A stretch of 64,000 nucleotides of DNA from Massilia sp. H6 (GTDB taxonomy: Bacteria > Pseudomonadota > Gammaproteobacteria > Burkholderiales > Burkholderiaceae_D): NCBI RefSeq assembly GCF_024802625.1, contig NZ_CP103371.1, positions 2,356,001-2,420,000 of the forward strand. Reading direction: 5' to 3'. Below, one piece after another: positions 15,381 to 55,023 of this stretch. A program made the translations under genes and the position numbers. Below the pieces are notes generated by a model. That model worked only from the letters and a program-made list of their open reading frames with translations. It searched no databases and was not told where the DNA came from. Position 1 is the first letter of the stretch, and the number at the start of each line of letters is the position of its first letter.

Positions 15381-18017
15381 GTGCAAATCCTGGAACAACG
15401 CTTCTTGCGCGGACCCAACGTCCACGCCGATACCCCTTGCCTGCTTAGCGTCGTCGACCTAGAAGGCCTGTATGGCCTGTCGTCGACCCAGCTCCCCGGC
15501 TTTAACGACGCCCTGCTGGCGGCGCTGCCTTCGCTGCACGGCCAGTTGCTCGCCACCGGCCAGCGCGGCGGCTTCGCCCAGCGCCTGCGCGAAGGCACCT
15601 ACCTCGGGCGCGTGATCGAGCAGGTCATGCTCGATTTGCAGGATCAAGCCGGGGCGCCGGCGCCGGCCAATTATGGCCGTACCCGCCCCGTGATCGGGCA
15701 CCCCGGCCAGTTCCGCATCGTCTGCGCGTATTCGCAGGAAAGGCTGGCGCAGCCGGCCTTCCAGCTGGCGGTCGACCTGGTCGAGGCGCTCGCCAACGCA
15801 GAAGCGTTCGACCTGGCCCCAGGCCTGGAAGCGCTGCGCACGATCGTCGCGCGCTACGCGATCGGCACCAGCACCGCGGCGGTACTGGCGGCGGCGCACG
15901 AGCGCGGCATCCCGACCCAGCGCGTGACCGACGACGCCAACCTGTTCCTGTTGGGCTGGGGGGCGCGCCAGAAACGCTTGCAGGCCACCACCACTGGCGA
16001 AACCAGCTTCATCGCGGTGAAGATCGCCAGCGACAAGCAGCTGACCAAGTCGCTGCTGGCCGAAGCCGGGGTGCCAGTGCCGGAAGGCTCGACCGTGACC
16101 AGCCTGGAACAGGCGCAGCGGGTGGCCGCGCGCATGGGTGCGCCGGTCACCCTCAAGCCGCTCGATGGCAACCAGGGCAAGGGCGTCACGGTCGACGTGC
16201 GCGACCCCGAGGGCGTGGCACGGGCCTTTGAATTTGCACGCCAGTTCGGCCGCCGCATCATTGTCGAGCGCTTCGTCGAGGGGCGCGACTACCGGGTGCT
16301 GGTGGCCAACGGCGCGGTAGCGGCTGCGTCCTGCCGCCGCCCGGCGCACGTCGTCGGTGACGGCATTGCCAGCATCCGCGCGCTGGTCGAGCGCGAGAAC
16401 CGCAATCCGGCGCGTGGCGCCGGCCATGCCAATATCCTGACCAGGATCGCGCTGGACGAGCACGCGGCCGACATGCTGCGCAGGCAGGGGCTGGACGCCG
16501 ACAGCGTGCTGCCGTTTGGCGTGCCAGCCGAGTTGCGTGGCAACGCCAACCTGTCCACCGGCGGCACCGCCGAGGACGTGACCGACCTGCTGCCGGAATC
16601 GACCCGCCTGCTGTGCGTGCGCGCCGCGGCCAAGATCGGACTGGACGTGGCTGGCATCGACATTGTCTGCCATGACATCGCACTGCCGCTCGACGCCCAG
16701 CGCGGAGCGGTCATCGAAGTCAATGCGGCGCCCGGTATCCGCATGCACCAGTATCCCAGCAGCGGCAGCGCGCGCGATGCCGGCGCCGCTATCGTGCAGG
16801 GCCTGATGGGCGACTCCGACGGGCGCATCCCGACGATCGCCATTACTGGTACCAACGGCAAGACCACCACCACGCTGCTGATCGGTCACACGGCGCGCAT
16901 GGCGGGGATGGTGGCCGGCGTGACCACCACCGAAGGCGTGTTTATCGACGGTAAGCAGATCGCCAAGGGCGATTGCACCGGCTACTGGTCGGCGCGCACC
17001 GTGCTGGGTTCGCCCGATGTCGAGATCGCGGTGCTGGAAACGGCGCGCGGCGGCATCCTCAAGCGCGGCCTGGCCTTCGACCGCTGTGACGTCGGCGTGG
17101 TGCTCAATATCGCGGCCGACCACCTTGGGCTCGATGGCGTGGACACGATCGAAGACCTGGCCCAGGTCAAGGCCGTGATCGCCACTTCGGCCTCGAAGGC
17201 GGTGGTACTCAATGCCGAAGACCTGCTGTGCGTCGCGATGGGGCGGCGCGTCAAGCCAAATACCGAAATCGTTTATTTCTCGATGGACCCGGAAAACCCG
17301 ACCCTGCTGCAGCACTTCGAAGAAGGCGGGCGCGGCGTCTATCTGCAAGATAACGCGGTGGTCGTGGCCGACGCCAACCTGCACCAGGAATTGCTGCGGG
17401 TCGAGAGCATGCCGGTCGCCTTTGGTGGCCGGGCACGCTTTAACATCGCCAACAGCCTGGCCGCGGCGGCCGCGCTGATGGCCGCCGGGTTCAGTAACCT
17501 GGAGATCGCCTCTGGCCTGTCCACCTTTGTCTCGAACGGGCGCACCAATCCGCTGCGCACCAATATGTTCGACATCCGCGGGGTCACCGTGATCGTCGAC
17601 TACGCGCACAATCCGGCCGCCTACCGCGCGATGGCCGAAATGGCGCGCGCCTTGCTACCCGGCCAGCTGGTAGGCATCGTCACCGCGCCGGGCGATCGCC
17701 GCGACCAGGACCTGAAAGAAGTCGGGCGCGTCTGCGGCGAACGTTTCGACGAGCTGGTGGTGTACGAATCGCAAAGCCGCGGCCGTCCCATGGGCGAAGC
17801 CGTCGACCTGATCCTGCAAGGCGCGCAAGATGCGGCCGGCATCAGCGACACGCTGCACCGGGTGCTCGAGGTGGGTGATGCCATCCGTCACGGCCTGTCG
17901 CTGTGCCGTCCAGGCGACGTGCTGGTCTTCGCCTGCGGTTCGTCGCTGGAAGTGTTCGTCGAAGCCTTGCGGGTGAACGATCCGGAAAGTGCCGACCTGG
18001 TGGCCGCGCAGGTGTAG
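15381..18017 (+). CDS. cphA: Cyanophycin synthetase
   Basis: The 878-residue enzyme polymerises aspartate and arginine into cyanophycin, a cytoplasmic nitrogen reserve. Domains in order: an N-domain (about 1-160); an ATP-grasp domain with KPLDGNQGKGV near residue 259, which adds Asp to the backbone; and a Mur-ligase-like domain with the P-loop GTNGKTTTT near residue 490, which adds Arg to the side chain. STGGTAEDVTDLLPE and VIEVNAAPGIRMHQYPS are conserved ATP-grasp segments. The start is GTG at 15381 with AAGGA upstream. A second synthetase faces it at 18831-21434. Confidence 0.94.
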   Translation: MQILEQRFLRGPNVHADTPCLLSVVDLEGLYGLSSTQLPGFNDALLAALPSLHGQLLATGQRGGFAQRLREGTYLGRVIEQVMLDLQDQAGAPAPANYGRTRPVIGHPGQFRIVCAYSQERLAQPAFQLAVDLVEALANAEAFDLAPGLEALRTIVARYAIGTSTAAVLAAAHERGIPTQRVTDDANLFLLGWGARQKRLQATTTGETSFIAVKIASDKQLTKSLLAEAGVPVPEGSTVTSLEQAQRVAARMGAPVTLKPLDGNQGKGVTVDVRDPEGVARAFEFARQFGRRIIVERFVEGRDYRVLVANGAVAAASCRRPAHVVGDGIASIRALVERENRNPARGAGHANILTRIALDEHAADMLRRQGLDADSVLPFGVPAELRGNANLSTGGTAEDVTDLLPESTRLLCVRAAAKIGLDVAGIDIVCHDIALPLDAQRGAVIEVNAAPGIRMHQYPSSGSARDAGAAIVQGLMGDSDGRIPTIAITGTNGKTTTTLLIGHTARMAGMVAGVTTTEGVFIDGKQIAKGDCTGYWSARTVLGSPDVEIAVLETARGGILKRGLAFDRCDVGVVLNIAADHLGLDGVDTIEDLAQVKAVIATSASKAVVLNAEDLLCVAMGRRVKPNTEIVYFSMDPENPTLLQHFEEGGRGVYLQDNAVVVADANLHQELLRVESMPVAFGGRARFNIANSLAAAAALMAAGFSNLEIASGLSTFVSNGRTNPLRTNMFDIRGVTVIVDYAHNPAAYRAMAEMARALLPGQLVGIVTAPGDRRDQDLKEVGRVCGERFDELVVYESQSRGRPMGEAVDLILQGAQDAAGISDTLHRVLEVGDAIRHGLSLCRPGDVLVFACGSSLEVFVEALRVNDPESADLVAAQV

Positions 18018-18830: not shown

Positions 18831-21434
18831 CTAGACGGCTTCGGCTTCGATCCTGCGCGCCAGTTCCGGCCGGGTCGGGCGCAGCGCCTCGGTCAGTTCC
18901 GAGATCGACGATCCGCAACCGAACACCAGCACGTCGCCTGGCCGGCATAGCGACAGGCCATGGCGAATCGCGCGGTGCACGTCGAGTTCGACCGTCAGCG
19001 CGTCGGCGGCGATGGCCAACCGCGCACCGCGTGCCAGCAGCGCCGCGGTCTCACCCTCAAACCGCCCGCGGTTCTCGGACTCATAAATCACCAGGTCGTC
19101 GAAGCCGGCCGCGCAGGTGCGGCCGATGTCGACCAGGTCGGCATCGCGCCGGTCGCCCGGCGCGGCCACCACGCCCACCAGCCGGCCGGCGCTCATGGCG
19201 CGCGCACTGTCGGCCAGGGCCGAGTAGGCGGCGCAATTATGGGCATAGTCGACGATCACGGTGACGCCGTCGACGTCGAACAGGTTCGAGCGCAGCGGAT
19301 TGTTCTTGCTGTCGGAGACAAAGCTGCGCAGACCGTCCGCGATGTCGTCATTGCTCAGGCTGGACGCGCTCAGGGCGGCGGCCGCGGCCAGCGCGTTGGC
19401 GATGTTGTAGCGCGCCGCGCCGCCTAGCGCGACCGGCATCTGGCGCACGTCGAGCAGGGCTTCGTGGCGGGCGCCGTTGGCCAGCACCAGGGTGCTGTCC
19501 TGCAGGTAGACGCCGCGGCCACCTTGCCCGAGGTGGCGCAGCAGGGTTGGGTTATCGGGGTCGAGCGAGAAATACAGCACTTCCACGCCCTCGCGCAGCT
19601 TGCCGGCCATCGCCACGCAATAATCGTCGTCGGCGTTGAGCACCACCGCGCGGGTGGCGCGCCGGGCCACCACGGCCTTTACTTTTGCCAGATCGGCCAG
19701 GTTCTCGACGCCATCCAGGCCCAGGTGGTCGCTCGACACGTTCAGCACGACCGAGACGTCGCAGCGGTCGTAGGCCAGGCCGCGCTTGAGAATACCTCCG
19801 CGCGCCGTTTCCAGCACCGCGAACTCGACTCCCGGATCGGACAGGATGCTGCGCGCCGAATGATAGCCGGTGCAATCGCCCTTCATGGTGCGCTGACCAT
19901 CGATGTACACGCCTTCGGTGGTCGTGACGCCGGTTCTAAGGCCAGCCATGCGGGTGGCATGCGCGATCAGCAAGGTGGTGGTGGTCTTGCCGTTGGTGCC
20001 AGTGACGGCAACCGTGGGAATGCGGCCGTCGCAGTCGCCGAACAGGGCCTCGACGATGGCGTCGCCGGCGTCGCGCGCGGCGCCGCGGCTTGGGTATTGG
20101 TGCATGCGGATGCCGGGCGCCGCGTTGACCTCGATGATGCCGCCGCGCTGGCCGCGCAGTGGCTGCGAGATGTCCTGGCAAACAATGTCGATACCGGCGA
20201 TGTCCAGGCCGATGGTGCGCGCGGCGCGGATGCACAGGTCGCGGGTTTCCTCCGGCAGCAGGTCGGTCACGTCTTCAGCGGTGCCGCCGGTGGACAGGTT
20301 GGCATTGCCGCGCAGGTCGGCGCCGACGCCGGCCGGCAGCACGGTGTCGAGATCGTAGCCCTGCTTGGCGAGCGTCTCTTCGGCCAGCGCGTCCATCGGA
20401 ATCCTGGTCAGGATATTGGCGTGCCCTTCGCCGCGCGCGGGATTGCGGTTTTCGAGTTCGACCAGCTCGCGGATGCTCGAGCGACCGTCACCGAGCACGC
20501 CGGGCGGGCGCCGCCACGAGGCCGCGGCCACCTTGCGGCCGGTCACCAGCACGCGGTAGTCGCGGCCGGCCAGGTGTTCTTCGACAATGATGCGGCGCCC
20601 GTAACGGCGCGCATGCTCGAAGGCGCGCGCCACCTCGTCGGGGGTGGCGCAATTGGTGGTCACGCCCTTGCCCTGGTTGCCGTCGAGCGGCTTGATGGTG
20701 ACCGGGCGCGCCAGGCGCAGGGCCACGCGCTGCGCATCCTCGACCGTGTTCACGGTCGAGCCGCCCGGCACCGGCACGCCGACGCCGTCGAGCAGGGCCT
20801 TGGTCAGCTGCTTGTCGCTGGCAATGCCGACCGCGATCGCGTTGGTGGCGCCGGTGACGGTTGCCTGCAAGCGCTTCTGGCGGCTGCCCCAGCCGAGCTG
20901 GAACAGGTTGGCGTCGGCGGTCAAGCGTTGGACCGGGATGCCGCGCCGCAGCGCCGCCTGCACCACCGCGCCGGTGCTGGTGCCAATGGCGTGGTCCTGG
21001 GCGAGCTCGCGCAAGCGCTCGACCGTGGCGCCCAAGCCCGGGTCGCGTCCGGTGGCCACGGCGTCGACCAGGTCGAGCGCGCAGCGCAGCGCCGCTTCGG
21101 CGACCTGCTCGATGGTGTAGCCGCATACGATGCGGCGCGATTCCACAGGTGGCTGCCCCGCATTGTGCGCAGCCACCGGCACGGTGGTACTGAAACTGCC
21201 AGCGGCGCCGGCCAGGCGCTGCAGTTCCATCAGCACCGGTTCGACCGCGTCGACCAGCGGGGCGTCGTCGGCCAGGCGCACGGCGGCGTCTGGCGCCAGT
21301 GCCGGCAGCAGCGCGTACAGGCGGCTGGCGAAGCCGGGCACCTTGGTAGCGTTATCTTCGATGACTGCCATCAGGCAGGGGCTGTCGGCGTACAGGTGGG
21401 GGCCGCGCAGCAGGCGTTTTTCCTTGAGTTTCAT
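18831..21434 (-). CDS. cphA': Second cyanophycin synthetase homolog
   Basis: The 867-residue paralog of the 15381-18017 product has the same order of domains. It retains the ATP-grasp segment KPLDGNQGKGV and the Mur-ligase P-loop GTNGKTTTT, so both ligase sites look intact. Its N-domain is shorter and diverged (MKLKEKRLLRGPHLYADSPC). Several Burkholderiales carry two cphA homologs. Whether this copy is a polymerase, a dipeptide-recycling enzyme or a hetero-oligomer partner cannot be decided from sequence alone. Its start overlaps the cphB stop by four bases, and a strong terminator follows, making it the last gene of iaaA-cphB-cphA'. Confidence 0.9.
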   Translation of the reverse strand: MKLKEKRLLRGPHLYADSPCLMAVIEDNATKVPGFASRLYALLPALAPDAAVRLADDAPLVDAVEPVLMELQRLAGAAGSFSTTVPVAAHNAGQPPVESRRIVCGYTIEQVAEAALRCALDLVDAVATGRDPGLGATVERLRELAQDHAIGTSTGAVVQAALRRGIPVQRLTADANLFQLGWGSRQKRLQATVTGATNAIAVGIASDKQLTKALLDGVGVPVPGGSTVNTVEDAQRVALRLARPVTIKPLDGNQGKGVTTNCATPDEVARAFEHARRYGRRIIVEEHLAGRDYRVLVTGRKVAAASWRRPPGVLGDGRSSIRELVELENRNPARGEGHANILTRIPMDALAEETLAKQGYDLDTVLPAGVGADLRGNANLSTGGTAEDVTDLLPEETRDLCIRAARTIGLDIAGIDIVCQDISQPLRGQRGGIIEVNAAPGIRMHQYPSRGAARDAGDAIVEALFGDCDGRIPTVAVTGTNGKTTTTLLIAHATRMAGLRTGVTTTEGVYIDGQRTMKGDCTGYHSARSILSDPGVEFAVLETARGGILKRGLAYDRCDVSVVLNVSSDHLGLDGVENLADLAKVKAVVARRATRAVVLNADDDYCVAMAGKLREGVEVLYFSLDPDNPTLLRHLGQGGRGVYLQDSTLVLANGARHEALLDVRQMPVALGGAARYNIANALAAAAALSASSLSNDDIADGLRSFVSDSKNNPLRSNLFDVDGVTVIVDYAHNCAAYSALADSARAMSAGRLVGVVAAPGDRRDADLVDIGRTCAAGFDDLVIYESENRGRFEGETAALLARGARLAIAADALTVELDVHRAIRHGLSLCRPGDVLVFGCGSSISELTEALRPTRPELARRIEAEAV

Positions 21435-30311: not shown

Positions 30312-32483
30312 ATGACCCTGAGACACGCAACGCTCGTCACCCTGCTGGCCGCCGCATTCGTCGCCACCCCGGCGCTGGCGCACACCTGCCCCGCCAACGG
30401 GACCCCGCTGGATTACCCGGTGACCAAGACCTCTGGCCAGACCGACAATTATCATGGCACCACGGTGGCCGACCCCTATCGCTGGCTGGAAGACGCCAAC
30501 AGCGCCGACACCAAGCAATGGGTCACCGCGCAGAACAAGCTGACCCAGGCCTACCTGGCCGAGATTCCGCAACGCGCGGCCATCCGCGCGCGCCTGACCA
30601 AGCTGTGGAATTACGAGCGCTTCAGCGTGCCTGGCAAGGAAGGCGGCCAGTATTTCTACACCCGCAACGACGGCTTGCAGAACCAGTCGGTCCTGTTCAC
30701 CCAGAAAAGCCTGGGCGACACCCCGCGCGTGCTGCTCGACCCGAACACCCTGGCCGCCGACGGCACCGTTGCCCTGGCCGGCATCGAAGTGAGCCCCGAC
30801 GGCAAGCTGCTGGCCTACAGCACCGCGGCCTCGGGTTCGGACTGGAACGAGATCCGGGTGCGCGACATCGCCACCGGCAAGGATCTGGAAGACCACATCA
30901 AGTTCGTCAAGTTCTCGAGCACGGCCTGGACCAAGGATGGCAAGGGCTTCTTCTACAGCCGCTACGACGAGCCGAAAGAGGCGACCAAGCTGGCCGACGT
31001 CAACTATTTCCAGAAACTGTATTTCCACCGCATCGGCACCCCGCAAAGTCTCGACACCCTGGTGTACGACCGTCCCGACCAGAAGGAATGGGGCTTCGGT
31101 GGCCAGACCACCGACGATGGCCGCTACCTGGTCATCACCACGACCAAGGGCACCGCGCCGAAATACCGCGTGTCGTACAAGGACCTGAGCAAACCCGATG
31201 CGAAAGTTGTCGACCTGATCGACAACTTCGACGCCGGCTATACCTTCATCGATAACATTGGCAGCGTGTTTTATTTCAGCACCGACCGCAATGCGCCGAA
31301 AAAACGCATCGTGGCGATCGACGTCACCAAGCCTGCCCCATCCAACTGGAAGGAAATCGTCGGCGAAAACGCCGATACCCTCGTTGGCGCCGACATCATC
31401 AACAACCAGCTGGTGCTCGAATACCTGAAAGACGCGCGCAGCGTAGTGCGCGTGCATGCGCTCGATGGCAAGCCGGTGCGCGAGATCGCCCTGCCTGGCA
31501 TCGGCTCGGTAGGCGGCCTGGCGGGCAAGCGCGGCGACACCGAGACCTTCTACTCGTTTACCGGTTATACCACCCCGACCACGATCTATCGCCTGGACAT
31601 GAAGACCGGCAAGAGCACCGTGTTCCGCCAGCCGAAGGTCGATTTCACGCCGGCCGATTATGAAACCCGCCAGCAGTTCTACACCAGCCGCGACGGCACC
31701 AAGGTGCCGATGTTCATCGTGTCGAAAAAAGGCCTGAAGCTCGACGGCTCGAACCCGACCTACCTGTACGGCTACGGCGGCTTCAATGTCGCGCTGACCC
31801 CGTCCTTCTCGCCGGCCAACCTGGCCTGGATGGAAATGGGTGGCGTCTACGTGGTGGCCAACCTGCGCGGCGGCGGCGAATATGGCGAAGCCTGGCACCA
31901 GGCCGGTACCAAGCTGCAGAAACAGAACGTGTTCGACGACTTTATCGGTGCGGCCGAATGGCTGATCGCCAACAAGGTGACCTCGCCCGAGAAACTGGCG
32001 ATCGGCGGCGGCTCCAACGGCGGCCTGCTGGTGGGCGCGGCCATGACCCAGCGTCCGGAACTGTTCGGCGCGGCGATTCCCGCCGTGGGCGTCATGGACA
32101 TGCTGCGCTTCCACAAGTTCACGATCGGCTGGGCCTGGACCTCGGACTACGGCTCCTCGGAAAACCCCGAAGAGTTCAAGGCCCTGGTCAAGTATTCGCC
32201 GCTGCACAACCTCAAGAAAGGCAGCTGCTATCCGGCCACCATGGTCACCACCGCCGACCACGACGACCGCGTGGTTCCCGCGCACAGCTTCAAGTACGCC
32301 GCGGCGGCCCAGGCCGCGCAAGGCGGGGCCGCCCCGATCCTGATCCGCATCGATACCAAGGCAGGGCATGGCGCGGGCAAGCCGACCACCAAGCTGATCG
32401 AAGAAGTGGCGGACCGCTGGGGCTTCCTGGCGCGCGAGCTGCGCGTTGGAGATGGCGAGAAAGCGGTGGGCGGTAATCACTAA
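30312..32483 (+). CDS. Prolyl oligopeptidase (S9 family), secreted
   Basis: The product of about 723 residues has a signal peptide (MTLRHATLVTLLAAAFVATP then ALAHT). After it come the N-terminal propeller entry text DPYRWLEDANS, a beta-propeller, and a catalytic alpha/beta hydrolase domain. The triad is visible: Ser568 in GGGSNGGLL, Asp in DHDDRVVP and His in KAGHGAGKP. It cleaves peptides after proline, probably in the periplasm. An in-frame ATG at 30288 would add eight residues; I prefer 30312 for the signal peptide and GAGAAG just upstream. A -10-like TATGAT lies near 30247. Confidence 0.92.
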   Translation: MTLRHATLVTLLAAAFVATPALAHTCPANGTPLDYPVTKTSGQTDNYHGTTVADPYRWLEDANSADTKQWVTAQNKLTQAYLAEIPQRAAIRARLTKLWNYERFSVPGKEGGQYFYTRNDGLQNQSVLFTQKSLGDTPRVLLDPNTLAADGTVALAGIEVSPDGKLLAYSTAASGSDWNEIRVRDIATGKDLEDHIKFVKFSSTAWTKDGKGFFYSRYDEPKEATKLADVNYFQKLYFHRIGTPQSLDTLVYDRPDQKEWGFGGQTTDDGRYLVITTTKGTAPKYRVSYKDLSKPDAKVVDLIDNFDAGYTFIDNIGSVFYFSTDRNAPKKRIVAIDVTKPAPSNWKEIVGENADTLVGADIINNQLVLEYLKDARSVVRVHALDGKPVREIALPGIGSVGGLAGKRGDTETFYSFTGYTTPTTIYRLDMKTGKSTVFRQPKVDFTPADYETRQQFYTSRDGTKVPMFIVSKKGLKLDGSNPTYLYGYGGFNVALTPSFSPANLAWMEMGGVYVVANLRGGGEYGEAWHQAGTKLQKQNVFDDFIGAAEWLIANKVTSPEKLAIGGGSNGGLLVGAAMTQRPELFGAAIPAVGVMDMLRFHKFTIGWAWTSDYGSSENPEEFKALVKYSPLHNLKKGSCYPATMVTTADHDDRVVPAHSFKYAAAAQAAQGGAAPILIRIDTKAGHGAGKPTTKLIEEVADRWGFLARELRVGDGEKAVGGNH

Positions 32484-32505
32484 ATCGTCACGCTGAAATG
32501 AAATG

Positions 32506-32529
32506 GCCGCCTGGGAAACCTGGCGGCCG
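32506..32529. terminator. Hairpin after the prolyl oligopeptidase gene
   Basis: GGCCGCC at 32506-32512 pairs with GGCGGCC at 32523-32529 around a ten-base loop that can itself extend the stem (GG/CC). No T run follows, so it may act as a weak or Rho-assisted bidirectional terminator between the convergent genes. Confidence 0.45.
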
Positions 32530-32586
32530 GCGGTGCTTTCATCGGTATGCGTATGGCAGCGCACCTAGATTGCCTCGCGCGCGCAT

Positions 32587-35500
32587 TCAGATGCGCTTGC
32601 CTCCCGCTTGAGTGCGGGCTGGCTGCAGCCTGCGTGCCAGCTTCCTGAGGTTATCGGTGATGTGTTCGCGGGTCCGGGCAATCCGGGCCCAGCTCTCGTC
32701 GGGGCCCTGGTCTCGCGTGCTCAACGCGCCATATAGGCGCGCCAGCTCCTCGATGTCGGTCACGATGGCATCCAGCTCCGAGGGCTTGAGAGCGATACCC
32801 CTGGTCGCATCAGCATAGCCTTGCAGGATATTCTCGAAGGCGGCTTGGCCGCCCGGGCCGTCGTCCCCGAGTATCCCGGTGATCAGGGTTTCCACCAGCA
32901 AGGCCTTTGCCCTGAGTAGCGCCGCGGCGGCGTTGCCTGACTGGCCGGTATCGGCGTCGTGCGCACATAGCCGCGCGAAGGTGATCGCCGGACCTTGCGC
33001 CTCTGGAGTAGTGTGGAGGCCCGCGAGAGCCTCCAGCGCGAGCCTGCTCAGGGCCAGTTGGGGAGCGAAATGCCCCAGTGCCGGACTGCCTTCGGCTACC
33101 TTGTAGGCGTCGGTAGCGTGCCTGAGTTCCTCTTCCATCTGGTCCTGTATCCAAGTGGCTTGCTCGATCCGCCGACCGCAAGGGGCCAGCAAATGACGTG
33201 CGTGCACGCTGGCCTTGCGGCGGTGGATCCTGCCGCGCAGCGCCTGGCGCTGGCACTTCGGCGGGGCCGTCGCAGGAACGGCCAGCCCGGCAGTGGCTGG
33301 CGGCTGGTCCGGGCCGGCGCGCCCCAGGCACCGCTCCCCGGCGTCGACGCTGGACAGGCGATCGAGTGCCACTAGTCGTAACAGTGCCCGCTCGAGCAGT
33401 AACCCGCTTTCTTCCAGGTCCTGTTGAAGCTTTATTTGGTCCACCTCTTCGCCGTTTTCGCGGGTGAGCGCGCGCTCGGCGCACTGTTCCCCGTATTGGG
33501 CTTCGACTTCCGCCAATTGTTCGATGTTGCGGACCGACACTTGTCCGAACTTGTCTTCCAGCTGTACAGCGCGCAGGAACGCATCGTAGGCCTGCCTGAT
33601 CTGGTTCAGCTCGCGCCTGGTGGCCCCTATGGCAGCATGCAGTTCCGGGCGCTCCAGCCATTTGGGCTGGCAGCGCTTGGTTAACAGCAGTTCGAGTTGC
33701 TTTGTGATCAGGGCACTGTCTTTGTCGGCAAATGCCTCGCGCCGGTGCGAGAGGCGAACCCGCAAATCGCTTAAGGCATCCAGCATTTCTTCCAGGCTCA
33801 CGAATTGGGTTTCCTTGACCGGTCCGTCGGCATTGTCGGTGCCGGCTTCCGCCATCCAGCCGGGGTCACCGTAGGCCTGGAAGGCGCCCCAGGTAAGGTC
33901 GGCCCGGTTTTCATCCCAAACGGTCTTTCGCGCGGCCTTGACTGCCTCCCCGAACTGCTTGCGTTGACCCAGCAGTTGCTCGTAGAACGTAGTGCCGAAC
34001 ATTCGCGCAAGGGCGTCGTCGACCGCCCAGCCGGCCACCAATACGCAGCGCACACCGATCTCGATGAGCTCGCGTGCGATGCTGGCGGCCAGGCGGTTGC
34101 TCTGCCGTCCACCGTCGAACTGGCCGCTGTGGCAGGAATTCAGGAAGACTAGTTCAGGTACCACCTCCATGGCGGCCACTTCAGCCGCGGTGATCAAGAG
34201 GCCGTCCGACAACACGACGCCGCTGCGGAAGCGGCCGTCCTTGTGCTTGATGTTGTACACACCGTGACCGGAGACATGCAGAATGCGCCATGGCTGGCGG
34301 TACAGTGCCGCCAGTACGTGAGTGGCGTCGGTGGGCTCGCCCCTGCCGCCGTCGACACGGGGGCCATGGCGCTCGGACGAACGCGCCAGCGCCGTGGCCT
34401 GCGTTTGCGCCGCGGAGTCGGACTGTGCATGCGCGCCGACGTCTCCGATCTCGCCAATTAGGCCTTCGACCTCGTAACCGTGCTTGGTCAGCACCTGTTG
34501 GATCGTGCTGGCCTCGTCGCGTGCGCCACGTAACGGGGCAAGGCTGCCGTTCGTACGGGAATTGCCTCCGCTATCGGCAAAAGCTGTGCGGAAACCTCGC
34601 ACCGACGGGTTGCCGATGACCAGCGCGCTGTAGGCGATCGCCTGCACTACCTGCGGCCGGTAGCGCAGGGCGGAGAGCTGACGAACCACGGAAGCGCGTA
34701 CTGCCAGCGGCGTTTGCTCGTGGTCAAGGTCGTTGCCACCGTCTGGGGCGCTGTCCGCCAGCATCAGTTCCCACGGCAGGTTGGCCGTATAGCCGTCAAC
34801 CACCAGCACCAGGCGGTCGAGCTGGCGCACAGCATCCTTGAAGTCGTGGGGCACCATCAGCTGGAATAGCATACGGCCGAAATCAGGATTCCATTTGTGG
34901 CTGTCGATCTGCTGCCGTACCAGTGTTTCGATCAGGCTCGGTTGACGCTGCTGCACCGTGGTCTCGGCGCGCGCCCGGGAGCCGATATACATGAAGCGCA
35001 GCCGGTCGGCGATCGGTGCTTCCTTCTGTCCGGTCGGTATCGGCAGCGGCTCGGCAAACGCGTGCTCCTCGGCATGGCTGGCATCGGTGATGATGATGCG
35101 GGGCCAATAGCTGGCTTCGGTGGTGTCATGCAGACGCTGTCGCACGCCTTCGCCGCTCACGAGTTCGTCACATACGCTGAGTTCGGTATGCTGTTTGTAA
35201 GCGATTTGCTTCAGCCTGTCGCGTAGATCGCGCAGGGCATAAACGGCGGCGATGGCCGTATCAAGGTAGAGCTCGACGATATTGAGTACGCCAATCCGGA
35301 TGTTCAGCCCGGTCCGCTCGTGGAAGCGCTCGTTAGCGGACATGACGCCGCGCACCAGCGCCTCGACCGACGAGGCGACCGACAGGTTGGCGGACGAATT
35401 GAAGCCCAGCAGCAAAGATGAGAGTTCCAGCTGGCGCTCATCCTTGCCGAGCACGTCCATGACTTGAAGGAGGAAGCGCAGGGCGCCGACGCGCACTGCC

Positions 35501-38500
35501 TCGGTAAGCTCGGAAGCGCTAAGCGTGCCGTCGTAGCGCCCCAGCCCGGCGACCACGGCACCGCTCAGGCGGCCGCCGGGTTTGCTCGAGCTGGCGTCGC
35601 GCAGCACGACGGTTGCGCTACCGCGCGCGCCGGCATACGCGCCCAGGTTGTAACGCCTGCTCAGGTCGCCATCCAGCAGCTCGCGGTCGATCTGCGCCTC
35701 TGCGCCGGAGATCGGATCCTGTTCGTAGTGCCCCACCATGATAGGGCTGGACACGAAGCGCAGGTCCATTGCCCGCACGGTCACATCCAGTCGGCGTAGC
35801 GGTCCGGCCGGCACCCGGCTTCGCAATGAGCCGCCGACCAGGCAGCGCTGCACTGCCTCCGTATCGGCGGCGGTCGGCGGGGCAGCGTCGTAGAGGACCG
35901 TGCCGCTCATGTCCGCGGGGCGCGTCGGCGGCTCGTGTGCTAGCAGACGCGTTGTCCCGGTTTTGAGCAGTTCCAGGATGGCCGGAAAATGCTCCTGCGT
36001 GGCCAGCAAGTCGCCATGGCGCGCCGGCATAAAGTAGTAACTATCGATCCAGGGCAGGCGCCCGGATTCCCACGTGACGATGCCGTCGCCGGCTGCCGTG
36101 CCGAGCAGGCCCGCCTGCGCCTCGGCGATCCCGCATGGCGTGCTCTGCGCAACGCCGAAGACGTAGATCGTCTTCGGTTCGGCGCCACTTGGCAAAGGCG
36201 TTTCGCCACGCTGCTCAAGCTGGGCGTCATGCGCGGCCAGCCACCCGGCTTCGGACAGCAAGGCCTGATTCGGCACGGCACCGCAGTTCTCACCGAACCA
36301 GCGGTCGGAGAACAGCTCAGACAATTTCCGCCAATAAGCTTCGTTGTAGTAGTTGCGATCGCTTGCGCCAGGGGCGATATCGAACGCGTCGGCAAAGTCG
36401 CGCGTAGGAAGCATTGAAAGCATGCCAGGGAAAGCAGCGAAGGTCGACAGCAGGTCGTGGAAATTGGTGCTCCTGAACTGTTGCCGCCAGAGCGAGCGCA
36501 AGCCATCGCCCTTGCCCAGCAGATCGGCCACCACGGCATGTGTGCCGCGGTTGGCAGTGCCGAGCATCACGATCCGCGCGCCGTCGCGCCGCATCAGTAC
36601 CTCCAAGATCCGCTGTTCGGAGGCATGGGTGCAGGCTCGCACCAGCAGGCCGCCCATCCCGTGTGCGATCAGCCTTACCGGCTCCGGGGTATCGCGAAAA
36701 CGTTCGAGAAAGCTGGCCAGCCGTTCGCCCAGTTTCCTCAGTGGCTGGCGCCAGTCGTAGGGGAAGGTGAACACTTGGTGGGTTGGGACAAGCTCAGCGC
36801 ACAGTTTCGCGTACAGGACGTCGATCACCTCGGTTGCCTCGACGTTGCGTCCGTTCAGTGCGAGCAGTTCCAGTCCCCTGTCGCCCGGGACCGGTGGATA
36901 CCACAGCTGCGTATGTTTCTCTTTCAGGTGCGAAGCCATCATGTCGGGCAAGACCACCACTATCGGCAGGCGCGCCGTACCGCCATTACCACGCCGTTTG
37001 GCGACTTCCAATTCCTTGGTAATGGCTTCGCGCCCCGGAATCGCGATAAAACGATCCAGCTTGGTGGGATCGCGGCTGATCAGCCAGTCTCGCAGCGCCA
37101 GGCGGCTGGAGCTGTTGCTGCAATAGCGGAAGTGGGAAACGTGGGCCCCGCGTTCGAACAATACCCTGGCCTTGGCCTGGGGCGCGATACCGGCCAGCAT
37201 GGCGGGGGTGTCGACAACGAGGTCATTGTCCTGCTTGTCGAACAGGACGAAATCTGTGAGCGCCACGCGCAGGCGGCTGAGCATGTCACCACCATCGACG
37301 TCGCCGGCAATCACAGCCATCTGGATGTCCGGTTTGACCAGCGCCTCGGACAGGAACTGGGCCAGGGGCGAATCCGGCAGCATGGCCTCGATGCCGGGTA
37401 CCAGGTGCGGGTCGGTGCGGCGCTTGGCGATTTCGATGACTGCACGACGGAATATCCGATATAACACGCTGGTGTACAGGAAGGGGACGGCATGCAGAAG
37501 TGTTAGCAAGCCCGACAGGAAAACATCAAAGTTTCCACTGGCCAATAGAGTACCGTTGGCCGGGCTTGCGATGCGGGCATACCTGCGGATGACGAGTTTG
37601 CGCTCACGTAATTCCCCGGCAAGCTTCAGCAGCAGTTCCCGCTGCTCGCCATAGGCGTCTTCGAGCCCGCGCAGGATGTCTCTGCGCTGCTTGGCGTCGC
37701 GCGTGCCGGGCGAGTGGAATGGATACCTATAATGCTCGATCTGGGCGCCGAAGTCGGCGAGGCACAGCAGGTCGGCAACCAGTCCCCCACGGGAGTGCGA
37801 CACCAGAGAAATGTGGGCGCCGTGGGGCAGGGATTGGACCAGTTCGAGTGCGTTTTCGATCGGACTTTGCGACAGGGTTCGGTGTTCGAACCCATAGATA
37901 TGGTCCCCATAATGCCCGCAGAGGTCGTTCCAAAGCTCTGGTTCGGCCGTCCGCAGATGACCGAAGCTGCCGAGGGTGCTTGAGCCGGTTCCATGCACGA
38001 AGACGAGTAGTTCAGCATCCGGCGGCGGTTGATCACCGGGTGTGGTGAGGATCACGCTGGCGAGCTCGTCGACATCGTCCGCCTGGTATTTCCAACGGCA
38101 CAAGCCGTGGTAGGTCTGGCGCCCCTCGATGGCTGCCATCAGTGCCTTGGTGCCGAGCCAGGAGATGCCGTCCTGCGCCAAGTCGATACCTTGCAACAAG
38201 GTGTCCTCGATGCTATCCGGCACCGCGATCAGGCTGATCTTGGAGATGACCCCCTTTAACATGGCCAAGGCACCGCGATGCCTGCCGGTGTCCGGCCCCA
38301 GCTTGTCGAGATCGGACAGAGTGCTGTTCCGAGACTGGCTCGCGCCGGCACGATCCAGTGCCTCCTTCAGCCGGCTGGGGTTAGCAACGAGTGTGCCGCC
38401 GTCGGCCAGCTCGAGGACGACGATCTGGCCGGGCTCGACTTGCAGGGAGATCCGTGTCGCTTCCGTATCGCGGGTGGCGGGGCTGACATCGATGACGTCC

Positions 38501-38685
38501 AACACCACCAAGCCAGGGGGCAGAAGGTCGTCATCTGCGTCCTGGGCCGTGGGGGCAGCGCCTGGATCCGGTGTCGCGGTTCGCCGCGGTCCGGTACGCA
38601 GGAAGGCGGCGGGCATAGGCTTTGAGTCGAGCCTGCGTCCTGTAATCGTCAAGCTTATCGGGCGGTCGACAGCACTATCGGACAT
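32587..38685 (-). CDS. Giant multi-domain CHAT protease with two alpha/beta-hydrolase domains
   Basis: The 2032-residue protein starts at an ATG preceded by GAGGAG. Domains by my reading: N-terminal unassigned region (1-215); alpha/beta hydrolase 1 (about 220-520) with LLVFVHGTGSS and VSHSRGG, nucleophile Ser298; hydrolase 2, LCAT-like (about 573-900), where the elbow reads IAHGMGG, so Gly676 replaces Ser; a macro-like domain resembling the N-domain of M17 peptidases (about 966-1090) with AVVAGLGRYDGTLSASEL; a CHAT caspase-like protease (about 1285-1610) with His1474 in HVSGHGVY and Cys1518 in FLNSCHSG; and a helical, TPR-like C-terminus. There is no signal peptide. Function is unknown. CHAT proteases act in defence and regulated cell death, and that role is only a hypothesis here. 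Confidence 0.88.
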   Translation of the reverse strand: MSDSAVDRPISLTITGRRLDSKPMPAAFLRTGPRRTATPDPGAAPTAQDADDDLLPPGLVVLDVIDVSPATRDTEATRISLQVEPGQIVVLELADGGTLVANPSRLKEALDRAGASQSRNSTLSDLDKLGPDTGRHRGALAMLKGVISKISLIAVPDSIEDTLLQGIDLAQDGISWLGTKALMAAIEGRQTYHGLCRWKYQADDVDELASVILTTPGDQPPPDAELLVFVHGTGSSTLGSFGHLRTAEPELWNDLCGHYGDHIYGFEHRTLSQSPIENALELVQSLPHGAHISLVSHSRGGLVADLLCLADFGAQIEHYRYPFHSPGTRDAKQRRDILRGLEDAYGEQRELLLKLAGELRERKLVIRRYARIASPANGTLLASGNFDVFLSGLLTLLHAVPFLYTSVLYRIFRRAVIEIAKRRTDPHLVPGIEAMLPDSPLAQFLSEALVKPDIQMAVIAGDVDGGDMLSRLRVALTDFVLFDKQDNDLVVDTPAMLAGIAPQAKARVLFERGAHVSHFRYCSNSSSRLALRDWLISRDPTKLDRFIAIPGREAITKELEVAKRRGNGGTARLPIVVVLPDMMASHLKEKHTQLWYPPVPGDRGLELLALNGRNVEATEVIDVLYAKLCAELVPTHQVFTFPYDWRQPLRKLGERLASFLERFRDTPEPVRLIAHGMGGLLVRACTHASEQRILEVLMRRDGARIVMLGTANRGTHAVVADLLGKGDGLRSLWRQQFRSTNFHDLLSTFAAFPGMLSMLPTRDFADAFDIAPGASDRNYYNEAYWRKLSELFSDRWFGENCGAVPNQALLSEAGWLAAHDAQLEQRGETPLPSGAEPKTIYVFGVAQSTPCGIAEAQAGLLGTAAGDGIVTWESGRLPWIDSYYFMPARHGDLLATQEHFPAILELLKTGTTRLLAHEPPTRPADMSGTVLYDAAPPTAADTEAVQRCLVGGSLRSRVPAGPLRRLDVTVRAMDLRFVSSPIMVGHYEQDPISGAEAQIDRELLDGDLSRRYNLGAYAGARGSATVVLRDASSSKPGGRLSGAVVAGLGRYDGTLSASELTEAVRVGALRFLLQVMDVLGKDERQLELSSLLLGFNSSANLSVASSVEALVRGVMSANERFHERTGLNIRIGVLNIVELYLDTAIAAVYALRDLRDRLKQIAYKQHTELSVCDELVSGEGVRQRLHDTTEASYWPRIIITDASHAEEHAFAEPLPIPTGQKEAPIADRLRFMYIGSRARAETTVQQRQPSLIETLVRQQIDSHKWNPDFGRMLFQLMVPHDFKDAVRQLDRLVLVVDGYTANLPWELMLADSAPDGGNDLDHEQTPLAVRASVVRQLSALRYRPQVVQAIAYSALVIGNPSVRGFRTAFADSGGNSRTNGSLAPLRGARDEASTIQQVLTKHGYEVEGLIGEIGDVGAHAQSDSAAQTQATALARSSERHGPRVDGGRGEPTDATHVLAALYRQPWRILHVSGHGVYNIKHKDGRFRSGVVLSDGLLITAAEVAAMEVVPELVFLNSCHSGQFDGGRQSNRLAASIARELIEIGVRCVLVAGWAVDDALARMFGTTFYEQLLGQRKQFGEAVKAARKTVWDENRADLTWGAFQAYGDPGWMAEAGTDNADGPVKETQFVSLEEMLDALSDLRVRLSHRREAFADKDSALITKQLELLLTKRCQPKWLERPELHAAIGATRRELNQIRQAYDAFLRAVQLEDKFGQVSVRNIEQLAEVEAQYGEQCAERALTRENGEEVDQIKLQQDLEESGLLLERALLRLVALDRLSSVDAGERCLGRAGPDQPPATAGLAVPATAPPKCQRQALRGRIHRRKASVHARHLLAPCGRRIEQATWIQDQMEEELRHATDAYKVAEGSPALGHFAPQLALSRLALEALAGLHTTPEAQGPAITFARLCAHDADTGQSGNAAAALLRAKALLVETLITGILGDDGPGGQAAFENILQGYADATRGIALKPSELDAIVTDIEELARLYGALSTRDQGPDESWARIARTREHITDNLRKLARRLQPARTQAGGKRI

Positions 38686-39051
38686 GGCAAACTCCTCGGG
38701 CTGAATCATGCGGTGACGAGCGGCAGGTCAACGGCCCACTCACCTTTGGATGCCCGGCCGCGACCGCATGGCAGTAGTCGATAGCAGCGCAGTCAGGCGA
38801 TTTGTTACAGGCAGCGGATCAAACGTGAGGGTTTCTTGGAGAGGGTGGCAATTCAGTTATTATGGTTGTCGGAATGACACTGCTATGCAAGTTAAGATTA
38901 GCGGCATCGCAAAAGGTTCACGCCCGACTGCGTGAGGCGAACCGGCGGTGCTGGAGAAAACCGACGCGTCGGAGCCATCCTCGGATTTCTCCGCATTGTC
39001 CGGTACGTCTTCGGCGTTGTCACCCGGCGGGCAACGAGGCCGTCCCGATGG
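38686..39051. other. Intergenic region upstream of the CHAT gene
   Basis: About 365 bases lie between the CHAT gene start and the stop of the XRE-cupin regulator, both on the minus strand. A short AT-richer segment (about 38850-38900) contains a minus-strand CATAAT and a TTGCAT 20 bases upstream of it, a suboptimal promoter spacing. No ORF, RNA gene or terminator is convincing. Confidence 0.4.
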
Positions 39052-51971: not shown

Positions 51972-52409
51972 GAGATCCTGTTGGGTGTATGGCCGAACCG
52001 TACCGGTCGAACTTCTAGCTTCAGGCTGGGGTCAAAGATCGTTTGTTTTATTGCCCTCATGCAATCTTCTCCAGGAGGTGGATTTTCTACCTATTCAGGT
52101 GTCCGGGCAATTTAGACCACAGCAGTGGGAACTGGTCGGATGGAACTGGCCACAGAAACGAAAAGTGCTGGGAGGGAAACGGCGAATGCCGCGCGGTAGC
52201 CAGCTTCCGCGAAGAAAACATTGAGAAGCGCGAGCCGAAGCGGCGTTTCTCAAACTTTCCCGCGCATGGGGGTGTTTTGACGGACTGCGTGTTGCATGTT
52301 CGCCGACTACTTGCAGGGCCAGCTTCTACGTGCAGCCAATGTACGACGCTCAAGCCAGCTCGTCAACCGCGCAGCCGGGCCTGGGCCAGCAACGGCCAGG
52401 ACAGGCGTT
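51972..52409. other. Degraded intergenic sequence before the Rhs remnant
   Basis: About 440 bases hold only short overlapping frames with no family I recognise. The segment probably contains remnants of earlier insertions, but I could not identify a terminal repeat, transposase motif or RNA gene in it. Confidence 0.4.
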
Positions 52410-53503
52410 GCTGGCGCTGTGCTGGTGCACTGGCTTCGCCCATTCTTAGGAAGGCACGGCCTTACGGAAAACGACCCGGACCATGTACGGCTGGGACGGC
52501 GACATGCTGGCCCTGGAAAGCAGCGTGCGCCAGGGCTATGCGGCGGACGAACGGACCGTGCACTATGTGTACGAGCGCGACAGCTTCGTTCCGCTGGTGC
52601 AGGCCACCCGAAGCCGGGCACTTCGACTGGCCCCTACCACCGATGTGAAAGCGCTGCTAGCGGGCAACGACGGCAAGTACGATATTGCTCTTGATCCGCT
52701 GTGGAATGGTGAGTACGAACATGAAGCCGAGCCGTTCGGTAAGGAAGAGATCGCCTTCTATCAATGCGATCATCTGGGTACGCCGCAGGAGTTGACGGAC
52801 TGTGAGGGCAAGGTCGCGTGGTCGGCGCAGTACAAGGCGTGGGGACAGCAAAGGAGGCGATCAGCGATGCGGCGAACAGGGCTGGGATATGGAATCCGAT
52901 TCGGTTCCAGGGACAATACTTTGATGAAGAGACCGGACTACATTACAACCGGCATCGTTACTCGATTCCGACATGGCGCGCTACCTCACGCAAGATCCGA
53001 TTGGTCTACTCTGCGGCATCAATATTTATGCATACGCCCCGAACCCTGTCGGTTGGATAGGTCCGCTCGGGCTATCTGGCAATTCGGCACAGAGAAGAAC
53101 ATCCCGTCGTGTTGCAGAAAAGAATGATCCATGTGAAGAGAGAATGGCTGCGAAAGCTGCAGGTTGGAAAAAACCCGATGGTAATCGGTGGTATCCACCT
53201 AATGATGGGTTTCATGGAGCGCCAACTAGAAAGAAATTGGCCGTTGGTACTAAACTGGATCGTTATGGTGGAGAACACGGTCGTATTCTAGCTCGAAATT
53301 GTGCTTCGTACGAGGGACGTGCGTCGCCACCTGGGACCGATAAACTAGCCCCATATCATCAATATGAAGTCACCAAGCGAATTGCCGTAAAATCGGGGCC
53401 AGCAACACCATGGTTTGATGAGGTTGGGAAGGGCGCCCAATATGAGACTGAAAAGTCAGTAGAACAGTTAATTGCTTTAGGTTGCTTAATGAGAATTTCA
53501 TGA
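52410..53503 (+). pseudogene. Rhs-repeat protein, truncated and frameshifted C-terminal part
   Basis: The conserved Rhs core end is spread over four frames. Order: ILRKARPYGK | TTRTMYGWDGDMLALES...FYQCDHLGTPQELTDCEG KVAWSAQYKAWG | AKEAISDAANRAGIWNPIRF...GLHYNRHRY | MARYLTQDPIGL...NIYAYAPNPVGW. Single-base deletions explain each break: in the A run at 52468-52471, in GGGG at 52841-52844, and at 52962-52963. The N-terminal shell is missing. Rhs proteins form cocoon-like carriers for polymorphic C-terminal toxins. The carrier here is dead, while the last frame remains open through the toxin domain. Confidence 0.85.
52973..53503 (+). CDS. Surviving Rhs tail with TNT-type (NAD glycohydrolase) toxin domain
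   Basis: The open 176-residue frame begins with the Rhs delimiter (MARYLTQDPIGL, APNPVGWIGPLGLSG) and ends in a TNT/DUF4237-like domain of about 105 residues. NRWYPPNDGFHGAP, KLDRYGGEHGRIL, EGRASPPGTDK, PYHQYEV, TPWFDEVGKGAQYE and KSVEQLIALGCL follow the family order. Arg in DRYG and Gln in GKGAQY align with residues important in the tuberculosis necrotizing toxin. The family hydrolyses NAD(P)+. Whether this tail is ever expressed without its carrier is unknown. The downstream immunity candidate overlaps its stop as ATGA. Confidence 0.75.
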   Translation: MARYLTQDPIGLLCGINIYAYAPNPVGWIGPLGLSGNSAQRRTSRRVAEKNDPCEERMAAKAAGWKKPDGNRWYPPNDGFHGAPTRKKLAVGTKLDRYGGEHGRILARNCASYEGRASPPGTDKLAPYHQYEVTKRIAVKSGPATPWFDEVGKGAQYETEKSVEQLIALGCLMRIS

Positions 53504-53817
53504 TTATCGAGTTACCAGAGTTTGACTTTGAAATTCCCCACCCAAATCCAGTGGCAATCGAGCCATTGCTCCGTAGAGTCCGCCAGTTTCTTGACGCAAA
53601 AGGAGTAGGCAGAAATGAATACGCCCTAGGTAGCCAAATCGCGGCTGGATTTGGCGAGCTTGTTATTAAGAAGATAAATAGCTTTTGGCTAGTATATAAC
53701 ACCGAACGCGGAACAAATTTTGATCTGGCGGTATTTTCAAATGAGTTTCAATCGGTCAACTATTTTATTTTTCGACTAACAGGTGAAAAAGAGAAGATCG
53801 ATTGGTCGACTATCTGA
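53500..53817 (+). CDS. Candidate immunity protein for the TNT-type toxin
   Basis: The 105-residue acidic-to-neutral protein (MIIELPEFDFEIPHPNPVAI at the start) overlaps the toxin-domain stop by ATGA, the normal position of an immunity gene for an Rhs toxin. It has no signal peptide or membrane segment and is rich in aromatic residues near its end (FRLTGEKEKIDWSTI). I do not recognise an immunity family. The assignment rests on position. The gene is AT-rich relative to the rest of the window, consistent with horizontal acquisition. Confidence 0.6.
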   Translation: MIIELPEFDFEIPHPNPVAIEPLLRRVRQFLDAKGVGRNEYALGSQIAAGFGELVIKKINSFWLVYNTERGTNFDLAVFSNEFQSVNYFIFRLTGEKEKIDWSTI

Positions 53818-53945
53818 CAAGCACAGCGGGAAGTTTATTTTTGATGAGTTGATCAGATTGCTCGGCTAGAATCAATATTCATATCTAAAGCCTGCGGTAG
53901 GTTACTTACGCGGCGAACACTTGTGCCAACGAATAGAGGAGTGTC

Positions 53946-54602
53946 ATGTCTAAAAAATCAGACAACGATAACCGTTCCAATCAATTAAACCCCAACCATG
54001 CCGAGTATACGAACTGTCGTGGCGCAGGCAAGGGGAGGGGTGGCGGTGAAATTGATGGCGATTATGATGAGCCTGGAAGGGGGAGAAGGAATTGGTCAGG
54101 ATATTCTTCCGCCATCGGTTCCGAGCGTATTGAGAGAACCCGGTACTACTTTGCGGCTACGGCTTTCGACGGAACGGCAGCGTATGTTCGATTCCAGACT
54201 GAAGTAACAGTCACCAGCTTTTCTCGGGGCAGCGAAAAGGCCCGCGATCTCGCAGAGAATGCAAAAGACGCTCTACTCGGTCACCTGCGGCGGAAATGCC
54301 CGCTCGGCGTCGCCTACTGGCGTCTTGCAACCGATGAAAGCCGGGGTGAGTTTTTTTGGTACATGCCCCCTCTAACCGATAACGAGTTCACAAGAATGCC
54401 GGAAATTTATGGAGCGGTCGAGCGGCAAAAAATGTCGACCTGGTATTCCACGGTTCGAACCCAATCGCAACAGTTAGACCTCTTGTTCGATTGGGGGAAA
54501 CACAATGATGCAGTCGATCTAGGAGTCATCAAGAGTGACGTCTTCACGATCGCTCCGGAAACTTACGCCTTGGCAAACTGGCAAATCCAGGAGTATCCCT
54601 AA
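53946..54602 (+). CDS. Hypothetical protein, unknown family
   Basis: The 218-residue protein starts with a hydrophilic, Asn/Gly/Arg-rich tail of about 60 residues (MSKKSDNDNRSNQLNPNHAE). A compact domain of about 155 residues follows: YYFAATAFDGTAAYVRFQTE, VTSFSRGSEKARDLAENAKD, GVAYWRLATDESRGEFFWYM and STVRTQSQQLDLLFDW. There is no signal peptide, membrane segment or recognised catalytic motif. It lies 128 bases downstream of the toxin-immunity pair in the accessory region. An inverted repeat GCCTAATT/AATTAGGC follows at about 54687-54715. Confidence 0.55.
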   Translation: MSKKSDNDNRSNQLNPNHAEYTNCRGAGKGRGGGEIDGDYDEPGRGRRNWSGYSSAIGSERIERTRYYFAATAFDGTAAYVRFQTEVTVTSFSRGSEKARDLAENAKDALLGHLRRKCPLGVAYWRLATDESRGEFFWYMPPLTDNEFTRMPEIYGAVERQKMSTWYSTVRTQSQQLDLLFDWGKHNDAVDLGVIKSDVFTIAPETYALANWQIQEYP

Positions 54603-54810
54603 CCTCTGCCGCGCAATCCAGATATGACCGGTTGAGGGCTACCTGCCCAGACTTAAAGCGTCCGCTTCTACTTCCCACTGCCTGCCTAATTCTGTTAAAA
54701 AATAAAATTAGGCGCTTTCGGGAGAGTGGCGGCGGTTTAAACGTGCGATACCCTCAGATTGAAATATTTAATTCGACGCTAGCGCCGTACATATCCGGAT
54801 TATTAGGAAA

Positions 54811-54945
54811 CTAACTTAATATTAGTGCGAGTAAAATAATGGTTGAGGACAGTGTCCAAAAGAGCCAATTCAAAAATTTGCTTTTTCTCGTCTTTATATT
54901 TACAAAAATTTCAATTATTAAACTGAAGATTGTTTCGCCAAACAT
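54811..54945 (-). CDS. 44-residue membrane peptide
   Basis: A short frame starts at an ATG preceded by GGAGGA at ideal spacing, which is a very strong ribosome site. The peptide begins MFGETIFSLIIEIFVNIKTR, has a basic middle (RKSKFLNW) and ends with a hydrophobic helix (LFWTLSSTIILLALILS). Codon use is AT-rich, unlike the chromosome. It could be a small membrane protein or a type I-toxin-like peptide; sequence alone does not decide. An in-frame extension to 55023 is less likely. Confidence 0.45.
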   Translation of the reverse strand: MFGETIFSLIIEIFVNIKTRKSKFLNWLFWTLSSTIILLALILS

Positions 54946-55023
54946 TTCTTCCTCCTGTTGATTTGAAATGATTTTAGCATTGAGAAGCCGTATATTTCTT
55001 TGCTTCGCATTGATGAAAAGCAA

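Follow-up and report, generated by a model that had tools for sequence, protein, structure and literature searches.

How two lipase-type hydrolases and a protease of the CHAT family work together on one bacterial polypeptide is the question raised by a gene in a 64,000-nucleotide (nt) stretch of Massilia sp. H6 DNA (contig NZ_CP103371.1, positions 2,356,001 to 2,420,000), referred to here as the window. An original prediction, made from the letters alone, described its 2032-residue product as a self-contained sensor-protease-lipase executioner in which a dead second hydrolase may act as a sensor or regulator. Profiles, folds and catalytic residues upheld the protease and the lipase-type enzymes of this description but not the self-contained sensor. 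We tentatively propose, at slightly less than an even chance, that the gene product is one of a family of zymogens with several enzymes on one chain, which would be cut after conserved Arg residues by Arg-specific caspase-fold proteases, releasing the lipases.

The open reading frame (ORF) was found to be as intact as predicted. It is free of stop codons, encodes 2032 residues from the ATG at 38685 on the minus strand (2040 if read from 38709), and has only a single match in its own genome. A frameshift in the tail, considered because residues 1785 to 1850 look odd, was ruled out since this region aligns in frame with relatives. Pfam placed the protein in two families, CHAT (PF12770; residues 1269 to 1607, E 1.7e-32, spanning positions 3 to 289 of the 289 in the profile) and DUF7379 (residues 227 to 307, E 5.8e-29, 101.8 bits against a cut-off of 33). 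For hydrolase 2, the single sequence yielded an LCAT match at residues 635 to 691 that lay below the Pfam cut-off (E 0.0017, 18.1 bits, cut-off 21), and a profile of relatives led to group XV phospholipase A2 and LCAT (4x90, E 2.2e-5). Human LCAT also ranked first in the fold search with the N-terminal half (4xx1, E 7.1e-7; aligned range not printed). Judged by modeled fold and profile together, hydrolase 2 qualifies as a predicted LCAT-like lipase.

The chain was modeled with AlphaFold2 as two halves, both with confidence: the mean predicted local distance difference test score (pLDDT) and predicted template modeling score were 86.5 and 0.90 for the N-terminal half and 85.9 and 0.80 for the C-terminal half, respectively. 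In a fold search, the C-terminal half matched Csx29/TPR-CHAT first (8eex, E 1.9e-6) and TPR proteins next, in agreement with the helical tail that had been predicted, and separase appeared at rank 44 (5mz6, E 0.029). The domain described as macro-like or similar to the N-terminal domain of M17 peptidases fared less well. PARP14 macro domains were found at rank 16 of the Foldseek results for the C-terminal half (E 5.5e-3, probability 1.00), but the match was weak (template modeling scores 0.13/0.33, root mean square deviation 5.2, aligned range not printed). A PDB sequence search with this domain gave no match at E<=10, and a profile scan of the region returned Pfam M17_N in just 1 of 26 relatives (E 0.14). 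We regard the macro-like part as the weakest of the domain assignments, suggested by one faint fold match.

Catalytic residues were compared in an alignment of 88 rows (the query and 87 relatives), with counts taken over rows that have a residue at the column, and in a held-out set of 18 relatives that are 33 to 81% identical to their nearest training row (two near copies were dropped). The triad of hydrolase 1 is nearly invariant, with Ser298, contained in the elbow VSHSRGG, in 84/85 rows and both Asp488 and His518 in 86/86. Hydrolase 2 retains Asp867 and His890 in 88/88 rows each. Position 676, where the elbow of the window copy reads IAHGMGG, is Ser in 80/87 rows and Gly in 7/87, the query included, with no other residue. 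Among the held-out relatives it is Ser in 18/18 and Gly in 0/18, and the triad residues of the hydrolases were found in 18/18. In CHAT, Cys1518, contained in FLNSCHSG, and His1474 are present in 84/84 rows and in 18/18 held-out relatives; of the two His residues in HVSGHGVY, His1470 occurs in only 58/84. Given triads that vary little or not at all, apart from the second Ser, neither hydrolase is a coincidence of motifs. The CHAT His/Cys pair and the two hydrolase domains, the first with and the second without its Ser, had thus been read correctly.

The role given to the dead hydrolase is not borne out for the family by this comparison. On a FastTree phylogeny of 82 rows, computed with column 676 omitted and the shorter rows left out (one Gly row among them), Ser and Gly at this position require four changes. 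As far as the sequences tell, loss of the Ser is a derived, minority state, and the prevalence of Ser in both sets indicates that the family state is two active-looking hydrolases. The window copy, in which Gly676 replaces the active Ser expected of an LCAT-like lipase, has one.

A search for columns conserved amid unconserved surroundings returned 29 columns, in which Arg and Leu were commonest (six each), compared with 38 Arg columns among all 430 conserved ones. Five of the six Arg columns (34, 72, 137, 565, and 922) belong to the N-terminal half, where they occupy loops or linkers around the enzymes; the sixth, 1813, belongs to the tail. The residue after the Arg was G, S, A, D, T, or N in 64/67, 81/84, 74/74, 78/81, and 86/87 rows at the five sites, respectively, versus fractions of 0.34 to 0.42 nearby. 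This excess held when the alignment was thinned at 60% identity to 48 rows, with p values, relatedness ignored, from 8.7e-9 to 5.9e-23. In a shuffle test that depends little on the alignment, R[GSAD] was present in 69/81, 80/84, 84/84, 83/86, and 86/88 of the corresponding stretches, each more than in all 500 shuffles; the E[GSAD] control in the same five stretches was as expected. The R[GSAD] ratio was 1.35 to 1.87 in the five stretches, 0.90 in neighbor genes and 0.93 in the CHAT-TPR linker. When 68 low-conservation windows of the chain were scored, the top six scores covered sites 137, 34, 72, and 565; site 922 lies outside these windows.

In the held-out relatives, the columns carried Arg followed by G, S, A, or D in 15/18 at site 72 (the others being one R-E, one A, and one gap), 17/18 at site 137 and 18/18 at site 922. 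Site 72 (16/17, highest shuffle 14) and site 922 (18/18, highest shuffle 17) exceeded all 500 held-out shuffles. At site 565, the aligned column was Arg in 10/18, followed by a small residue in seven. The model of the N-terminal half is least certain at residues 35 to 38, 45 to 50, and 132 to 140, and its pLDDT dips at 561 to 570 (66) and 921 to 930 (74). On these sequence comparisons, candidate sites 922, 72, and 137 are the best supported, and 34 and 565 are weaker.

Several observations weigh against cleavage at these positions. All five sites were discovered and initially tested on one alignment. In the held-out shuffles, site 137 (18/18, mean 13.3) equals the highest shuffle, and no separation from chance was seen for site 34 (8/13, shuffle mean 7.3) or site 565 (17/18, mean 12.9, maximum 18). 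An R[GSAD] excess also occurs in the site-free windows 529 to 555 (z 4.6), 769 to 795 (z 3.5), and 1849 to 1875 (z 3.4), and several low-confidence stretches of the AlphaFold2 model, such as 161 to 170 and 481 to 490, are site-free. The window copy itself has R-P at 922, the sole R-P in 87 rows, together with Gly676 and no adjacent metacaspase. In addition, the model has Arg565 at a helix end (552 to 566) and Arg72 within an ordered hairpin loop, and some conserved Arg residues within domains likewise precede small residues (269, 299, 683, 1065, 1237, and 1239). These last observations, with two of the five sites lacking clear replication, would fit a structural role, in which each Arg would cap the edge of a domain or bind the domain next to it, the small residue comes from a turn, and the chain is an uncut scaffold whose CHAT acts on an outside substrate. 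We consider this unlikely, as the pLDDT falls below 50 at or next to sites 34 and 137 and dips to 74 at site 922, with few other conserved residues nearby, and neither the shuffles nor the CHAT-TPR linker control gave a general bias.

The label self-contained does not apply to much of the family. At least 593 stretches were returned when the genome collection was scanned; by tblastn, 571 of them encode a relative, although different CHAT or hydrolase proteins may be among these. The 80 best (loci L033 to L112) encode proteins of mostly about 1770 to 2080 residues where the contig permits. Eight loci were set aside for their short flanks. Among the remaining 72, which have 900 nt or more upstream, a profile search over all reading frames located a same-strand metacaspase-type gene directly upstream, in an operon-like arrangement, in 49; as the best 80 are by construction nearest to the query alignment, this proportion need not apply to the whole family. 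Of the held-out relatives, 7/18 have a metacaspase directly upstream, and in an eighth a match lies at a distance of about 1 kb on that side. Seven further loci, from four plasmids and three genomes, had no metacaspase-type gene directly upstream. Judged by record titles, the paired loci span four phyla, Pseudomonadota, Cyanobacteriota, Nitrospirota, and Thermodesulfobacteriota. On the tree, gain and loss of adjacency take 11 changes or more, with seven short-flank rows not counted.

The nearest named solved relatives of the upstream partner are GSU0716 (3bij, E 3.5e-77) and Metacaspase-1 (4f6o, E 9.9e-47). Its catalytic and presumed specificity-pocket residues are kept throughout, the Cys-x-x-Asp, Ser-Gly-His, and Asp-x-Cys positions having zero exceptions in the 51 domains with the residue (one locus was counted twice); we take these GCxxD, SGH, and DxC motifs to be the residues of the metacaspase S1 pocket. 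Non-caspase C14 enzymes characterized so far are described as having a strict preference for Arg or Lys at P1 (PMC5756287). By sequence, ten of the 51 domains, with A-C-x-F-D instead of G-C-x-N-D, seem to form a second subtype. A second metacaspase subtype (GLNxVSxxAYGGW) was observed at the same position in Paucibacter/Rhizobacter-type loci (L033, L035, L048 to L050, L053, and L062), so the partner may have been exchanged.

Further observations count against the proposal. Pairwise distances of the giant protein and the metacaspase correlate only modestly (r 0.39). Among 24 genomes whose CHAT locus lacks an adjacent metacaspase, a C14 gene was found elsewhere in 18 and none was detected in 6; none was detected either in G021, a genome of the host's genus. 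The Arg sites mostly persist in these C14-less genomes, some of which are perhaps incomplete, so either the adjacent enzyme is not the sole cutter or the Arg residues have another role. One locus lacking an adjacent metacaspase, L105, misses sites 34 and 565. Separase specificity is for Arg, and CHAT, which is related to separases, might cut its own chain, with the metacaspase as an optional trigger or acting on other proteins. This would account for CHAT residues that are intact throughout a family of which only part adjoins a metacaspase, for sites kept where no C14 gene was detected, and for separase among the fold matches of the C-terminal half. We rate it as rather improbable, though ahead of a structural role: it leaves the frequent adjacency unexplained, and the best structure matches, Csx29/TPR-CHAT, naturally cut another protein, Csx30 (PMC11106740). 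CHAT self-processing, another protease, and a structural role of the Arg are all retained as options.

Architecture, catalytic residues, operon-like adjacency, and the Arg-small pattern are features of the sequences themselves, and from them we infer how the proposed zymogen might work. Two lipase-type hydrolases would be held on one chain with the macro-like domain, the CHAT protease, and the TPR tail. Upon some signal, Arg-specific caspase-fold proteases, either the metacaspase-type enzyme encoded upstream in many relatives, the chain's own CHAT, or both, would cut after the conserved Arg residues of the loops that surround the enzymes (922, 72, and 137, and with less support 34 and 565). 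Cutting would free or unlock the hydrolases, which may then attack membrane lipids and cause cell arrest or death. For the window copy, the cutter may be its own CHAT or a C14 protein whose gene lies in another part of the genome. A bolder version, possible but doubtful, is a polyprotein executioner in which a metacaspase-to-CHAT cascade cuts the giant chain at several Arg residues and releases two lipases together, a bacterial counterpart of caspase cascades that targets membrane lipids rather than activating a pore-former. The family offers a testable link, with named Arg residues for the protease cuts and named lipases for release. If the zymogen proposal is true, bacterial metacaspases would be tied to a specific co-encoded substrate.

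The family is sporadic in the host's order. It was found in 24 of 399 genomes of the order (E<=1e-50, host counted), one of which (G777) has only a partial match, and in 4 of 398 genomes of a phylum sample, the host again counted. Ten plasmid records match, none across 80% of the query. No description of this family was found in the literature searched, from which most subscription papers are absent.

The window copy has no metacaspase gene beside it; the 222 nt from 38710 to 38931 end at an opposite-strand ORF without a Pfam match. Its neighbors scanned with Pfam are housekeeping genes or without a match. Conserved housekeeping contexts of most homologs had been named as a ground for abandoning the link to defense or death; this copy does sit among housekeeping genes, but as an insertion. 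The adjoining prolyl oligopeptidase gene was matched in 61/61 genomes of the genus sample, and in the five best-matching of 60 congeners (L028 to L032) it is directly followed by the next two core genes without an intervening CHAT gene, so the copy looks like a one-gene insertion of about 6.5 kb. No outstanding repeat was found at the junctions within 32400 to 38950, and no search was aimed at transposases. We propose that the window copy stands alone in its genome and was gained laterally by the host. That this gene, taken by itself, is a nonfunctional stray in decay we consider quite improbable. Its solitary insertion, Gly676, R-P at 922, and lack of an adjacent metacaspase would suit decay, but the frame is full length with an in-frame tail, the CHAT and hydrolase 1 residues are intact, and Gly676 with Asp and His kept arose four times on the tree, unlike random decay. 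The features of the gene are collected in Table 1.

Table 1. Coordinates, within the window, of the gene, its domains, candidate cut sites, and inserted segment
Feature	Position	Strand	Basis or remark
Whole gene, 2032 aa	32587..38685	-	N-beta domain, hydrolase 1, hydrolase 2, macro-like, CHAT, TPR-like tail
N-terminal beta domain, residues 1-112	38350..38685	-	AlphaFold2 strands
Hydrolase 1 (DUF7379), residues ~190-545; Ser298, Asp488, His518	37051..38118	-	Pfam, alignment, AlphaFold2
Hydrolase 2 (predicted LCAT-like), residues ~572-915; Gly676 for Ser, Asp867 and His890 kept	35941..36972	-	
Macro-like domain, residues ~964-1214	35044..35796	-	Weak fold match alone; sequence searches negative
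CHAT protease, residues ~1229-1609; His1474, Cys1518, Asp1557	33859..35001	-	
Helical TPR-like tail, residues ~1631-2032	32590..33795	-	
Arg34, candidate cut site (here R-R-T)	38584..38586	-	Not replicated in held-out relatives
Arg72, candidate cut site (R-D), ordered loop of N-terminal beta domain	38470..38472	-	
Arg137 (R-G), candidate cut site in the disordered linker ahead of hydrolase 1 (pLDDT <50 at 132-140)	38275..38277	-	
Arg565, candidate cut site (R-G) between hydrolases, end of predicted helix 552-566	36991..36993	-	Replication weak
Arg922, candidate cut site between hydrolase 2 and macro-like domain	35920..35922	-	
Gly676, nucleophile Ser position in most relatives	36658..36660	-	Alignment
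Approximate inserted segment between prolyl oligopeptidase and next core genes	32484..39050	.	Site empty in 5 congeners compared

The host genome has a single C14 match, in a 992-residue ORF about 460 kb from the giant gene (L120:5835-8813). Its C14 domain, at residues 688 to 947, stands behind a hydrolase-like GHSAGA elbow that was read by eye, and a 619-residue ORF without a Pfam match comes after it. Elsewhere in the window, positions 52000 to 58000 have a G+C content of 0.51 to 0.59 versus about 0.65 and contain a fragment of an RHS protein together with scanned ORFs that lack a Pfam match; this looks like an RHS remnant island. An adjacent convergent pair of cyanophycin-synthetase-like genes occupies 15381 to 18017 and 18831 to 21434.

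The suggested link to defense was followed through the neighborhoods of relatives and proved weak. No family of PADLOC-DB 2.0.0 matched the window protein at E<=1, and an NCBIfam scan returned nothing useful. A phage or viral origin was rejected: there was no match in 50,697 phage records and none was confirmed in viral contigs. A defense-island signature around the metacaspase-less relatives was considered and rejected. At these loci, 89 neighbor proteins were hand-picked (88 among 150 of 167 candidates and a further one from L111, with L108 and L109 omitted), and TIR was found in 5 and nSTAND1 in 2 of them, among the 25 commonest of 135 families. Two L109 neighbors were scanned separately, and at metacaspase-bearing loci just a few neighbor proteins were scanned. 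TIR, nSTAND1, and TPR-S genes stand beside only some relatives. On the Ensifer plasmid pB (L018:4410-9348), nSTAND1 and periplasmic-binding-protein genes lie directly upstream of a metacaspase-less relative; upstream neighbors of other such relatives encode a solute-binding protein (L017) and TIR proteins (L081, L089, and L109). The cyanobacterial loci L051, L090, and L103 have a common downstream gene, with TPR-S in L051, the one scanned, and a second caspase-like match lies further downstream in L051 and L090. The analogy with conflict genes that pair a caspase and a hydrolase (PMC7159879) makes a defense role plausible, but it is weakly supported.

Among known systems, Csx29/TPR-CHAT of Craspase (type III-E CRISPR) is the best PDB fold match of the C-terminal half and likewise joins CHAT to a TPR-type helical part, but identity with the giant protein is about 12% in the fold alignment and, to our knowledge, Csx29 has no hydrolase domains. 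No CRISPR families, and thus no Cas7-11 beside TPR-CHAT as in Craspase, were found by Pfam in the 20 window ORFs scanned. LCAT and group XV phospholipase A2 resemble hydrolase 2 by family profile and the N-terminal half by fold, whereas the giant is a bacterial multi-enzyme chain whose window copy has Gly for the nucleophile Ser. Metacaspases and orthocaspases (C14) are represented by the upstream partner of relatives, with none beside the window copy. For bacterial pairs of a caspase-fold protease and an alpha/beta-hydrolase, we know of no established working mechanism. In NTP-dependent conflict systems, caspase and alpha/beta-hydrolase are repeatedly paired and are said to act together, and the word CHAT is absent from the part of that text that is accessible (Kaur et al. 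2020, PMC7159879). The 25 commonest of the 135 families around metacaspase-less relatives include no MoxR/vWA partners. The giant family shares with the pairs of Kaur et al. a caspase-superfamily protease paired with an alpha/beta-hydrolase (PMC7159879), but differs in that two hydrolases and CHAT are carried on one chain and many relatives have a separate metacaspase.

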